Positions 15,902-51,830 of a stretch of DNA of 64,000 nt are shown one piece after another (the stretch's first letter is position 1; every line of letters starts with the position of its first letter). Source of the stretch: Solicoccozyma terricola (taxonomy: Eukaryota > Basidiomycota > Tremellomycetes > Filobasidiales > Piskurozymaceae); NCBI GenBank assembly GCA_001600875.1, contig BCLD01000001.1:2271422-2335421 (forward strand), given 5' to 3'. The position numbers were made by a program, and so were the translations under genes. The notes beneath the pieces were generated by a model. The model was given only the letters and a program-made list of their open reading frames with translations. It was not told where the DNA came from and made no database searches.

Positions 15902-18115
15902 TTACTCTGCAAAGATCGGGGCGTTCTTATGAGCCTGCCATCCAGCGAGTTCGTTGTGGGTGTCGTCATGAGTCTCGATTTGCACATCTTGTTGAATCTG
16001 GATGATAACCTCCGGTGGGAAGGATGAACCGGTTTCGCGTGGCATGCCTGTATTGGAAAAGAAGATGAAAGGATGTCAGGGATGATAGCTCACTCAAAGC
16101 GAATGCTGTTTTTTCCACAGTCGTACCGGTAAGTGGGCCCGCGTAGTTTGCGAGCTGAGCAGAGGAAGGAAAGTACTAACGTTAGCCTAGACCTAATATC
16201 TCCCGCCGTCCGAACCATCCACTCACAGCGCTAGGGATCTCCTTTGCCAAGACCCTCTCGGTGAGCCTATCCCTCGAGTGAACTCGAAACATCTCACCCA
16301 TCTCATTTGTCAAGTGAGATGAGCTCTCGCGAAGACCAACGCCTGCCTCGAGTTCCAACGGGCCATCCAAGCTCTCGTTTGGATCGATGATTGCACCACG
16401 CTCGCGCATGAGAGCTAGAATAGTATTGTTGGCATCATGATGGACAGCCGTCTTGAATGGTCCGTCACCCTTGTTATTATCTTGGACATTCATGAATGAG
16501 CCATGGCGTGCGCCGGTGATTCGGCGGGTGGCAAAGCCCTGATGACCATCGTTGTCCTTCGCGTATTCTAGAGGTAGGTAAAGCTGGAGGAAGGCGACCG
16601 CCAGCGGGCGGGGGGAGGGGGGGGGGGGGGGGGGCTTCAGTGACCCTTGTCGTCATCGAATGAGTCACTGATGCTTACGGTGACGGACAAAATAGCGGAA
16701 ATGGCGAAGCTGATGATTGCGATCTGGAGCATGAAGTCGCTCGCGAAGCTGGAATCAAATCCAAAGAGAGACGGTCTCTGCGTCAACAAACCCTTCCACC
16801 CCCCCCCCNNNNNNNNNNNNNNNNNNNNNNNNNNNNNNNNNNNNNNNNNNNNNNNNNNNNNNNNNNNNNNNNNNNNNNNNNNNNNNNNNNNNNNNNNNNN
16901 NNNNNNNNNNNNNNNNNNNNNNNNNNNNNNNNNNNNNNNNNNNNNNNNNNNNNNNNNNNNNNNNNNNNNNNNNNNNNNNNNNNNNNNNNNNNNNNNNNNN
17001 NNNNNNNNNNNNNNNNNNNNNNNNNNNNNNNNNNNNNNNNNNNNNNNNNNNNNNNNNNNNNNNNNNNNNNNNNNNNNNNNNNNNNNNNNNNNNNNNNNNN
17101 NNNNNNNNNNNNNNNNNNNNNNNNNNNNNNNNNNNNNNNNNNNNNNNNNNNNNNNNNNNNNNNNNNNNNNNNNNNNNNNNNNNNNNNNNNNNNNNNNNNN
17201 NNNNNNNNNNNNNNNNNNNNNNNNNNNNNNNNNNNNNNNNNNNNNNNNNNNNNNNNNNNNNNNNNNNNNNNNNNNNNNNNNNNNNNNNNNNNNNNNNNNN
17301 NNNNNNNNNNNNNNNNNNNNNNNNNNNNNNNNNNNNNNNNNNNNNNNNNNNNNNNNNNNNNNNNNNNNNNNNNNNNNNNNNNNNNNNNNNNNNNNNNNNN
17401 NNNNNNNNNNNNNNNNNNNNNNNNNNNNNNNNNNNNNNNNNNNNNNNNNNNNNNNNNNNNNNNNNNNNNNNNNNNNNNNNNNNNNNNNNNNNNNNNNNNN
17501 NNNNNNNNNNNNNNNNNNNNNNNNNNNNNNNNNNNNNNNNNNNNNNNNNNNNNNNNNNNNNNNNNNNNNNNNNNNNNNNNNNNNNNNNNNNNNNNNNNNN
17601 NNNNNNNNNNNNNNNNNNNNNNNNNNNNNNNNNNNNNNNNNNNNNNNNNNNNNNNNNNNNNNNNNNNNNNNNNNNNNNNNNNNNNNNNNNNNNNNNNNNN
17701 NNNNNNNNNNNNNNNNNNNNNNNNNNNNNNNNGGGGTAGTGTGTTAGCGGTGGCAAGTTCGAAAGGATTGAATGGGGGAAACGTACGACCATGAATACCT
17801 TCAAGGCGTTTTTCCTGCTTGTTGGGATGAGGCATCGAAACTTGTCATACTTGTACTGGCAAGGGTTTGGGGAGATGGGGAGGTGGGGAGGTAGGGATAA
17901 GACCAAGACAAAACATCCGTCCGGTCATTCTCAAAAGCTCACAGTGTGAACAGTTAGGTATGCAAGCCCCTACCGTTTTCCCAATTCGGGACAAGTAATT
18001 CATCAATGTACTGATCACATATTGTTCGTGGTTGTCGTCGTTCAAGGAGAAAATAACTCACCGTGATTGTGATAACAGTAGTTATCAGGTCATTCGCTGG
18101 AGCAGCTGTCGCCAT
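15902..18115 (-). CDS. predicted multi-pass membrane protein, interrupted by assembly gap
   Basis: I do not recognise the family with confidence. The start at 18115 gives MATAAPANDLITTVITIT (donor gtgagt), then HEQYVISTLMNYLSRIGKT, YKYDKFRCLIPTSRKNALK and VFMV before the gap (16809-17732). After the gap the frame resumes with FASDFMLQIAIISFAISAIL, a clear membrane segment, then LYLPLEYAKDNDGHQGFATR, a hydrophilic tail (RRITGARHGSF, HHDANNTILALMRERGAIID, LANYAGPLTGTTVEKTAFAL) and the end HNELAGWQAHKNAPIFAE at the stop 15902-15904. The layout, a tyrosine/arginine-rich loop before a TM, several TMs hidden by the gap and a polar C-terminal tail, resembles basidiomycete 7-TM membrane proteins of the DUF6534 kind, but that is a guess. 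Confidence 0.5.
16809..17732. other. assembly gap (924 Ns) inside the membrane-protein gene
   Basis: Run of N flanked by poly-C on the left (16798-16808) and GGGG on the right. It removes an internal part of the gene on the minus strand. Confidence 0.98.
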
Positions 18116-22824: not shown

Positions 22825-25281
22825 CTAGAGGTCTCCCTTGTAATCAGGCTGAAAGGTGGGAAAAAACAAATACGTTAATAAAGCAAGATGCTAGAACCGA
22901 AACAACAAAACCATCATGACTCACCCTGAGACGACGAACGGTCTTACCGGCACGCCAGATCTCTTGGTCCTCGATCGCCTTAGTCTCCTTGGCAAAGTCT
23001 TCTCGGTAAGTCGGGCGGTTGTTGAACTCCAAAGATCGACGAGTTTCTGATCCGTCCTTGACACTGGCGTAAAGCTCTTGGAAGACGGGCTTGACGGCAG
23101 CGTGGAACTTTGGGTACCAATCAAGAGCACCCCTTCGAGCGGTGGTAGAGCAGGCGTTGTACTGGGTGTGCCGCGGGGGGGGGGGGGGGGGGAGAGTTTT
23201 CAGATCAGTATGCGTTCGAAAAGGATAACAGTGAAGGGATAACATACCATGTAGTCCATACCGTACTTGCCGATCAAGGGGAAGAGAGACTGAGTGGCTT
23301 CCTCGACGGTCTCGTTGACTGCAAATGATGGGGGTAAAGCGTCAGAATGAACGGATATTTGAAGGAAACAGATTAACGTCTGTCACTCACAAGCCTCGGA
23401 TGGAGAGTGGCCGTTCTCTCGGAGGACTTCGTCTGAGGGGAGGATTTTAAAAATTAAGGGTACCAGGTAAGCGTTCCGGACGAAACGAACTCTGGTTTGA
23501 GCAAGTAAGTGAAATCTCACATTGAGCAAGGAACATTCCTTGGATACCACCCATGAGCACACCACGTTCTCCGTAAAGCTATTGGAACGGTAACAGCAAC
23601 ACCTGATCAGTTCAGGTTCCGATCAACTCTGATTGCACGCGCGCGGAGGTACTCACACTAAGTTGGCGTTACAGAGACGAACAGAAGAGGGAAATTGTTG
23701 ATGTCGAACCATCAGCGCTTCCATTCCCCTTCCCCACAAACAGCGCAGCTCGTTTCTAAGCGAAAGAAAAGATGAAACGTTTCACTCACTCACTCCGGAC
23801 CTCCTTCTCAAAGGTGGTCTCGTAACAGTAACCACTTCCAACAGCGATACCAAGAGCAACAGCCTTCTCCATTGCTTTCCCTGTAACATCTTGGAAAACG
23901 GCTACGGAGGAGTTGATACCTCGACCTTCAAGGAAAAGAGTTCGAACGGTACGACCGGAACCTTTTGGTGCGACGAGGATGACATCGACGTCAGTTGGTG
24001 GGATGACACCGGTCTGAAGTGGGGTAAAGAAAAAGAAAAAGAAAAAGAGGTGCAAGGAAAACGTTGTAAGTTCCCCAGTTCAAGATCCCAAAAAACTATT
24101 CAATTTAACCCCCCCGATTCCCCTGAAAATACCGGGTGGGGAACGGTTGGGGGGAAAAACGGGCGCATGCAAAAAAACACTCACGTCCTCCTTGTAAACT
24201 ACGGAAAACCCGTGTGCAAAGTAAAGAGTTTTCCCCTTTGTGATAAGAGGTTTAATTTCCGGCCATGTAGCTGATTGAGCAGCATCGGAAAGGAGGTTCA
24301 TGATGATTGTACCACGGTTGATAGCTTCCTCGATTGGGAAAAGAGACTCTCCTGGGACCTATTAGAGGGAATGAAAAAAAGAACCAAGAACGAAGGAAAA
24401 AAGAAAAGAAAAGAAATGCATACGAACACAATCAGTATCTCGAACAACTCCATCGAATTCCCCCCGACCCCCCAAAAACCACATCACTTACCCAACCATC
24501 CTCCATTGCCTGCTTCCAACTCTCTCCACCCTCTCGAACACCAACGATAACTTTAAGACCGTTATCCCTTGCGTTGAGGGATTGACCGTGACCTTGAGAT
24601 CCGTACCCGATCATGGCAAGAGTATCATTTTTGAAGTAACTGGGTGGTGGGAGGGCGATGATGGGATGGGATGGGAAGAAGGGGGGAAAAAAAAAAAAAA
24701 AAAAAAAAAAAACGGCGTGGTGTAAGTCAGATGACGTCCTAATCTCCCTTTCTCTCTCTCATTCCGCAAAACACATCAAACCATACCCGCGTCATCCTCT
24801 CCTTCGTTGGAAGGACAAGGAGACAAAAGGGTTTTGACACAAAGTAGGAGAATCCATCATCACAACGCCGCGCGTCCTACTCACGCTTGCAACTTTTCAA
24901 GAGGCCAGTCGGATCGCTCGTAGATGGTCTCTGGGGTTCCAGCGAAATCAAGAGTCTTGACTCCGCGAGTGGCCTGCGTGGGGGGGGGGGGGGGGTGAGG
25001 GGGTGAGGAGAGGGGATGGAAGGGGATGGAAGGAGATGGAAAGAGGGATTGTAAGTACGGCGACGGTGTGTGTGTTTTTTCAAAATAACCCCATCTCATC
25101 CCAATCTCCAACCACTCACACCCATGGCCATCTTCGCAACGTTGTTGCTGACATTCGACCTGACTGCCTGATTAGCGAGAAGGGAGAATGAACGCTTTGC
25201 GACCTGGACTTTTGGGGTTGCTGTCGCGGCTTTGACGGCCTGCTTGAGGGTGTTGCGTGTAGCAGCGGTACGGAAGGACAT
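22825..25281 (-). CDS. ILV5: ketol-acid reductoisomerase, mitochondrial (contains a 1-nt microexon)
   Basis: Second enzyme of valine/isoleucine synthesis: Mg- and NADPH-dependent conversion of acetolactate or acetohydroxybutyrate, in mitochondria. The start at 25281 gives an amphipathic targeting peptide ([18 protein letters not shown]). Spliced exons then read [39 protein letters not shown] (NADPH-binding GxGxxGxG), [75 protein letters not shown], then [37 protein letters not shown] and [19 protein letters not shown]. The last exon (22825-22850, PDYKGDL) is very short. Keeping the invariant S-D-L-Y-G-E block requires the codon GA|T|CTT, with the T at 23657 as a one-base exon between introns 23658-23789 and 23579-23656. 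Several introns contain long A or G runs. Confidence 0.95.
23657..23657 (-). other. ILV5: putative single-nucleotide exon of ILV5
   Basis: On the minus strand the sequence reads ccaacttag-T-gtgagtacc. A good acceptor is followed by one base and then a consensus donor. The upstream exon ends AGT GA (23790) before gtgagtg, and the downstream exon starts CTT TAC GGA after ccaatag (23578). Joining GA+T+CTT gives S-D-L-Y-G-E; omitting the T shifts the frame. The Asp so encoded is, by family knowledge, a Mg2+ ligand of the enzyme. Confidence 0.75.
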
Positions 25282-51725: not shown

Positions 51726-51830
51726 NNNNNNNNNNNNNNNNNNNNNNNNNNNNNNNNNNNNNNNNNNNNNNNNNNNNNNNNNNNNNNNNNNNNNNNNNNN
51801 NNNNNNNNNNNNNNNNNNNNNNNNNNNNNN
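51726..51830. other. assembly gap (105 Ns)
   Basis: N run starting in a poly-G tract and ending exactly at the beginning of a 90-bp tandem repeat copy. Probably more copies of the repeat are collapsed here. Confidence 0.95.

Follow-up and report, generated by a model that had tools for sequence, protein, structure and literature searches.

A probable one-nucleotide exon in ILV5 completes the codon of a conserved aspartate

The ILV5 gene in the window, the whole stretch of 64,000 nt analyzed here, very likely contains a real exon of a single nucleotide, a T at position 23657, that would be used constitutively; both its use and its constancy are read from the sequence. The gene and the parts around the junction are arranged as follows.

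22825..25281, minus strand: ILV5, encoding ketol-acid reductoisomerase (KARI), with 11 exons and 10 introns, 409 aa, ending in TAG
23790..24013, minus strand: exon 5, ending ...E-V-R-S-GA, in which GA supplies positions 1 and 2 of the D266 codon
23782..23793, minus strand: GTGAGTGAGTGA, a tandem repeat with three copies of GTGA, forming overlapping donors at 23793, 23789 and 23785
23658..23789, minus strand: intron 5, 132 nt, GTGAGTGAAA...CAACTTAG, phase 2
23657..23657, minus strand: one-nucleotide exon T, third base of the Asp266 codon
23579..23656, minus strand: intron 6, 78 nt, GTGAGTACCT...CCAATAG, phase 0
23521..23578, minus strand: exon 7, starting L-Y-G-E-R-G and including E270

A sequence-only reading of this DNA had described the junction, and its observation was confirmed in coordinates, frame and open reading. 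Exon 5 ends in GTC CGG AGT GA at 23790 and is followed from 23789 by the donor GTGAGTG, while the next exon begins CTT TAC GGA GAA CGT from 23578 and is preceded by CCAATAG. The T of CTTAG-T-GTGAGT is located at 23657 as claimed, and the flanking introns of 132 and 78 nt make up, with this T, an interval of 211 nt. Joining exon 5 straight to 23578 shifts the frame, as had been stated, and inclusion of the T restores it, giving E-V-R-S-D-L-Y-G-E-R-G within 409 open codons. The proposed assembly of the Asp266 codon GAT from GA and T, followed by CTT, so that three exons meet at this codon, is supported in the gene model. Two features expected of a single-nucleotide exon are found at 23657, namely AG-N-GT between two canonical GT-AG introns and a base that is needed for the frame and for a conserved motif. 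The ILV5 gene model with the T exon is very probably correct.

The spliced model with the T exon has a coding sequence of 1,230 nt, which is translated into 409 aa with no internal stop codon. The product matches the Pfam domains KARI_N and KARI_C (PF07991 and PF01450), both above the cut-off, and these two domains together with the D....E magnesium ligands place it among the ketol-acid reductoisomerases. It shares 87% of its residues with P0001, a protein encoded on a 1,331-base JGI contig, and at only this identity P0001 is not the product of this ILV5 gene. Its identity to the Kwoniella newhampshirensis protein P0002 is 81% and to Filobasidium and Naganishia proteins about 80%; by the taxonomy of the nearest named relatives, Kwoniella and Filobasidium belong to the Tremellomycetes. 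When residues 55-262 were used for a protein search, none of the 120 matches listed was more than 93% identical in that part, and therefore no protein of the source species is among the matches listed. A search of the 23.9 Mb assembly with the 148 C-terminal residues found a single ILV5 locus, and a scan of the window found no N run inside the gene.

The T falls within a conserved segment of the enzyme. The invariance of D-L-x-G-E given in the sequence-only reading was borne out, as S-D-L-x-G-E is present in all 146 listed relatives (about 8,000 proteins were scored per search). In a profile alignment, D266 and E270 correspond to Asp191 and Glu195 of 7q03, the Methanothermococcus enzyme MtKARI. 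In this archaeal enzyme, Glu195 and Asp191 bind the first magnesium ion, and Asp191 and Glu231 bind the second (PMC8615647). The role of the aspartate and the glutamate as magnesium ligands agrees with this alignment to residues that are ligands in MtKARI; D266 aligns with the ligand position of both magnesium ions, and E270 with the second ligand of the segment. Skipping of the T exon shifts the frame at the D266 codon, just before the magnesium-binding residues. As one base completes a metal-ligand codon, messages missing the T should not yield a working enzyme. Close to the junction, R264 (CGG, 23797-23795, minus strand) adjoins S265. All 146 listed relatives have Y, F, I or H at the equivalent position, where the solved structure 7toc_A has N; among the 146 and the query, R is found only in this protein.

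We enumerated the splice paths that could connect exon 5 to exon 7. For single introns 40 nt or longer with the site types GT-AG, GC-AG, AT-AC and GT-AC, none of the 18 in-frame paths retained S-D-L-Y-G-E. Among these, the donor at 23800 (GAG|GTCCGG) joined to 23579 is in frame but loses V-R-S-D, and the donor at 23793 joined to an AG within exon 7 (23569) is in frame but loses S-D-L-Y-G-E. A single intron 23785-23579 keeps the register but leaves an in-frame TGA. With two introns of at least 20 nt (GT/GC..AG, first donor from 23812 on), 4,173 paths were obtained, 75 of which are in frame without a stop codon; just two of these give SDLYGERG, one through the T exon at 23657 and the other through a C exon at 23717. 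Restricting the introns to at least 35 nt left 1,830 paths, 66 of them in frame and five with D or E before LYGERG. Besides the T and C exons, these five comprise a one-base A exon and two longer exons. The A exon gives S-E-L-Y-G-E and has a poor donor (GTTGAT), and the two longer exons put E instead of D before LYGERG. An acceptor-like CTTTTCTTTCGCTTAG at 23756 (minus strand, 8.3 bits) was also considered, and no path through it gives SDLYGERG in the enumeration with introns of at least 20 nt. An intron from the 23789 donor to this site would measure 34 nt. As introns of 20-40 nt have been mentioned in Cryptococcus neoformans (PMC11913375), this length alone is no ground against the site at 23756.

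A different splice path, either through the C at 23717 with its GC donor or through a site type outside the enumeration, is hardly credible as the true one. The C likewise restores SDLYGERG, but its acceptor scores -10.1 bits and its GC donor -13.2 bits, below all 31 control introns, and the AT-AC and GT-AC types, where tried as single introns, did not yield S-D-L-Y-G-E. Because the T path has normal splice sites and the C path does not, the T path alone is credible among the enumerated paths that restore SDLYGERG.

The scoring matrices behind these values were built from 31 control introns of the same genome, comprising 8 undisputed ILV5 introns and 23 introns of the actin, beta-tubulin and EF-1alpha genes; these introns had been placed by an aligner favoring GTRAGT and YAG, which introduces a mild circularity. 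In leave-one-out scoring, the control donors ranged from 3.8 to 14.0 bits and the acceptors from -1.3 to 12.2 bits (n=31). The donor and acceptor of intron 5 score 9.8 and 3.7 bits and those of intron 6 score 8.7 and 6.4 bits, so all four sites of the T path lie inside the control range and their strength is normal, with a weakish intron 5 acceptor; 8 of the 31 control acceptors fall below 3.7 bits. The donor at 23656 is the strongest interior donor of the interval, followed by one of 2.1 bits that overlaps it and then by one of 1.1 bits. The sole YTRAY within 60 nt of the 3' end of intron 5 sits 54 nt away, and intron 6 has CTGAT 28 nt from its 3' end; the YTRAY element is missing in 7 of the 31 control introns. 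RNA structure prediction for the junction region gave no signal (z = 0.10).

The T exon was also recovered when the genomic DNA was compared with relatives. A purpose-written spliced aligner was run against each of 123 full-length relatives carrying the motif, and at an intron cost of 16 and a frameshift cost of 22 it chose the T exon with all of them; exon 5 was likewise kept in 123/123 alignments, and four alignments of this run contained one frameshift event each. For the first 60 of the 123 relatives, the T exon was chosen 60 times out of 60 in each of four settings with an intron cost of 25 or less. At an intron cost of 30, all of the same 60 switched to the single intron 23785-23579 with its in-frame TGA, and the first 40 of the 123 did so (40/40) when splice-site scoring was turned off. 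The aligner takes 23785-23579 because, under these settings, paying the stop penalty of 15 costs less than opening a second intron. The loss of the T exon without site scoring indicates that the choice of the aligner rests partly on the splice-site consensus, beyond the frame.

The main rival to the T exon is an assembly error, in which the end of exon 5 or the start of exon 7 lacks a base, the interval is one 211-nt intron, and CTTAG-T-GTGAGT is coincidental. An intron of this length is possible, since the controls reach 264 nt and an intron of 245 nt lies within ILV5 itself. The control median, however, is 82 nt, with 2 of the 31 above 200 nt, which favors the split into 132 and 78 nt. The window contains 11 N runs, at 16809-17732, at 51726-51830 and at nine places of 1-2 bases each, which are gaps or withheld stretches and bear on this explanation. 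However, the junction itself has neither an N nor a long homopolymer, and the actin, beta-tubulin and EF-1alpha controls needed no frameshift over 1,265 query residues, GAPDH being left out. An assembly error also requires that a one-base exon with good sites arose by chance. In dinucleotide shuffles of the interval interior, a one-base C or T exon with both sites as good was found in 6 of 10,000 and one with any base in 13 of 10,000; C or T was counted because the aspartate codon needs C or T in its third position. Taken with these points, an assembly error is improbable.

Across the window, YAGYGTRAGT occurs 4 times against 0.61 expected, and 3 of the 507 AG-N-GT sites on both strands, 23657 included, are of this quality. 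The other two, at 2619 and 53013, were rejected as one-base exons, as by inspection their flanking frame reads ordinary exon ends. The one at 2619 (minus strand), CACAG-T-GTGAGTTA, mimics a one-nucleotide exon and reads as the ordinary exon end ...MCLHS of a gene that we take to encode an alpha/beta hydrolase with a GDSAGAN motif.

It is very unlikely that this ILV5 copy is decaying, or broken in this strain only, through a true loss of one base that was never rescued. The unusual R264 might hint at a recent change at the end of exon 5, but every other exon is open and conserved over the 409 aa, and the copy is the sole ILV5 locus found in the assembly. Cells growing without branched-chain amino acids depend on the ILV5 pathway.

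If the T is an exon, introns 5 and 6 would be separate U2-type introns, recognized by intron definition and removed successively. Each is bounded by a donor and an acceptor of its own, and its length falls within the control range. The intron 5 acceptor and the intron 6 donor are one base apart, so that their simultaneous occupancy is unlikely and removal of one intron at a time is to be expected. The order of removal can be conceived from the sequence either way, and in both cases the intron remaining after the first step would be an ordinary intron between exons of normal size. The mature message is expected to read ...CGGAGTGATCTTTACGG... across exon 5, the T and exon 7. Two-step splicing by intron definition is plausible for the T exon, judging from this layout. 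Intron definition is the main splicing mode in fungi according to a cross-kingdom survey (PMC2397502), and successive removal around a one-nucleotide exon was argued for APC11 by Guo and Liu (PMC4674806).

The tandem donors at 23793, 23789 and 23785 score 9.4, 9.8 and -2.0 bits, respectively, and 23789 is the only one of the three that gives an open frame with the T exon. Use of 23793 with the acceptors of the model is out of frame with or without the T exon. As this donor, 4 nt upstream, is nearly equal to the one used in the model (9.4 vs 9.8 bits), measurable unproductive isoforms are predicted. It could be imagined that the near-equal 23793 donor and the single-base exon make mis-splicing or skipping common, so that the junction acts as a splicing checkpoint in which the ratio of productive to unproductive messages sets the output of this branched-chain amino acid enzyme and responds to the state of the cell. 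Such a checkpoint, which is quite doubtful, would mean that ILV5 messages mis-spliced with the model acceptors are frame-broken and prone to decay.

As for the origin of the T exon, our guess is loss and rescue: an ancestral GAT|GTGAGTGA donor would have lost its T, and a cryptic T exon would have taken over. A like scenario has been put forward for the Fusarium one-nucleotide exon (Nelson and Syed; PMC12940212). Introns 5 and 6 do not behave as introners, as each matches only itself in a search of its own genome in which simple repeats and very common words were skipped.

Relatives outside the set of full-length proteins were also inspected. All 13 incomplete relative ORFs examined read through SDL(Y/T)GERG before diverging, 11 of them diverging directly after GERG or GERGV. 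These 13 are probably, for the most part, unspliced or partial ORFs, and since they diverge past GERG, the nearest intron in them seems to lie a few codons further on. Searches for intron-bearing relatives returned 6 pattern matches and no related locus in viral contigs; in prokaryote genomes, 80 of 593 loci were kept, all with bacterial titles and at 31-40% identity.

The statement of the sequence-only reading that single-base exons are extremely rare in any eukaryote was overstated, as cases have been published for plant APC11 and VPS55, Fusarium CYP621A and Cryptococcus neoformans. The nearest in taxonomy is C. neoformans, which shares its class with the nearest named relatives of this ILV5 and is, likewise, a tremellomycete with intron-rich genes (PMC3990503). 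The RNA-seq annotation of C. neoformans var. grubii reports exons 'as small as 1 bp', and one-base exons in this species are described as hard to identify automatically (Janbon et al., 2014; PMC3990503). The intron section of that paper gives neither the gene names nor the count of the 1 bp exons, and its main text does not mention ILV5 (PMC3990503). Among the papers searched, we found no earlier report of a one-nucleotide exon in ILV5.

The CYP621A exon of Fusarium (Nelson and Syed, 2026; PMC12940212) resembles the ILV5 exon in several respects: one base lies within the codon of a conserved motif, its omission breaks the frame, AG and GT stand on either side, and the whole interval is short. 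It differs in that the exon is a G forming the central base of a glycine codon, whereas the ILV5 T stands at the third position of an aspartate codon. Further, CYP621A belongs to an ascomycete and is backed by at least 20 orthologues and RNA reads, while the ILV5 T exon is known from the sequence of one genome. CYP621A has been presented as the first fungal case (PMC12940212), which does not agree with the statement on 1 bp exons in C. neoformans.

In plants, one-nucleotide exons have been described in APC11 (Guo and Liu, 2015; PMC4674806) and VPS55 (PMC8831610). As in ILV5, the single base is placed between two introns; removal of the two introns in succession has been proposed for APC11, and the donor of VPS55 conforms to GTRAGT. 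Unlike the ILV5 exon, both have been confirmed experimentally and are conserved across many land plants (PMC4674806; PMC8831610). Mitochondrial one-nucleotide exons have been reported in placozoan cox1 and, between group II introns, in fungal rnl (PMC12308204). The ILV5 arrangement also shares with stwintrons (spliceosomal twin introns) two adjacent introns and consecutive removal reactions. In a stwintron, however, one of the splicing elements of the external intron is split by the internal intron, whereas here the intron 6 donor is whole and one base is kept. As CTTAG (intron 5) and GTGAGT (intron 6) are both intact and parted by a retained T, a stwintron was rejected.

The ILV5 T exon is a clear new example of an already known exon type in an unusually telling place. 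The candidate is well defined and belongs to a primary-metabolism enzyme for which one locus was found, and it provides a clean natural setting for testing how a one-base exon is handled by a spliceosome that presumably works by intron definition. It may also serve as a gauge of how many tremellomycete gene models are wrong through one-base exons. The Cryptococcus paper implies that 1 bp exons recur in Tremellomycetes, and if they do, their origin could be surveyed comparatively.

Some minor observations were made on the same assembly. Two GAPDH-like loci had been left out of the 31 control introns: the stretch L115 (G000:C4:105800-108000) opens with 821 N, which cover the 5' part of the gene, and its alignment contains a frameshift 116 bases beyond them, and L116, a second GAPDH-like gene, has no frameshift and doubtful introns. 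Enolase gave no match with an approximate yeast query, which is odd for a conserved glycolytic enzyme and possibly reflects a gap, masking or search sensitivity. Within ILV5, introns 1, 2 and 9 (24995, 24712 and 23192, minus strand) carry homopolymers of 16 C, 26 T and 18 C, respectively.
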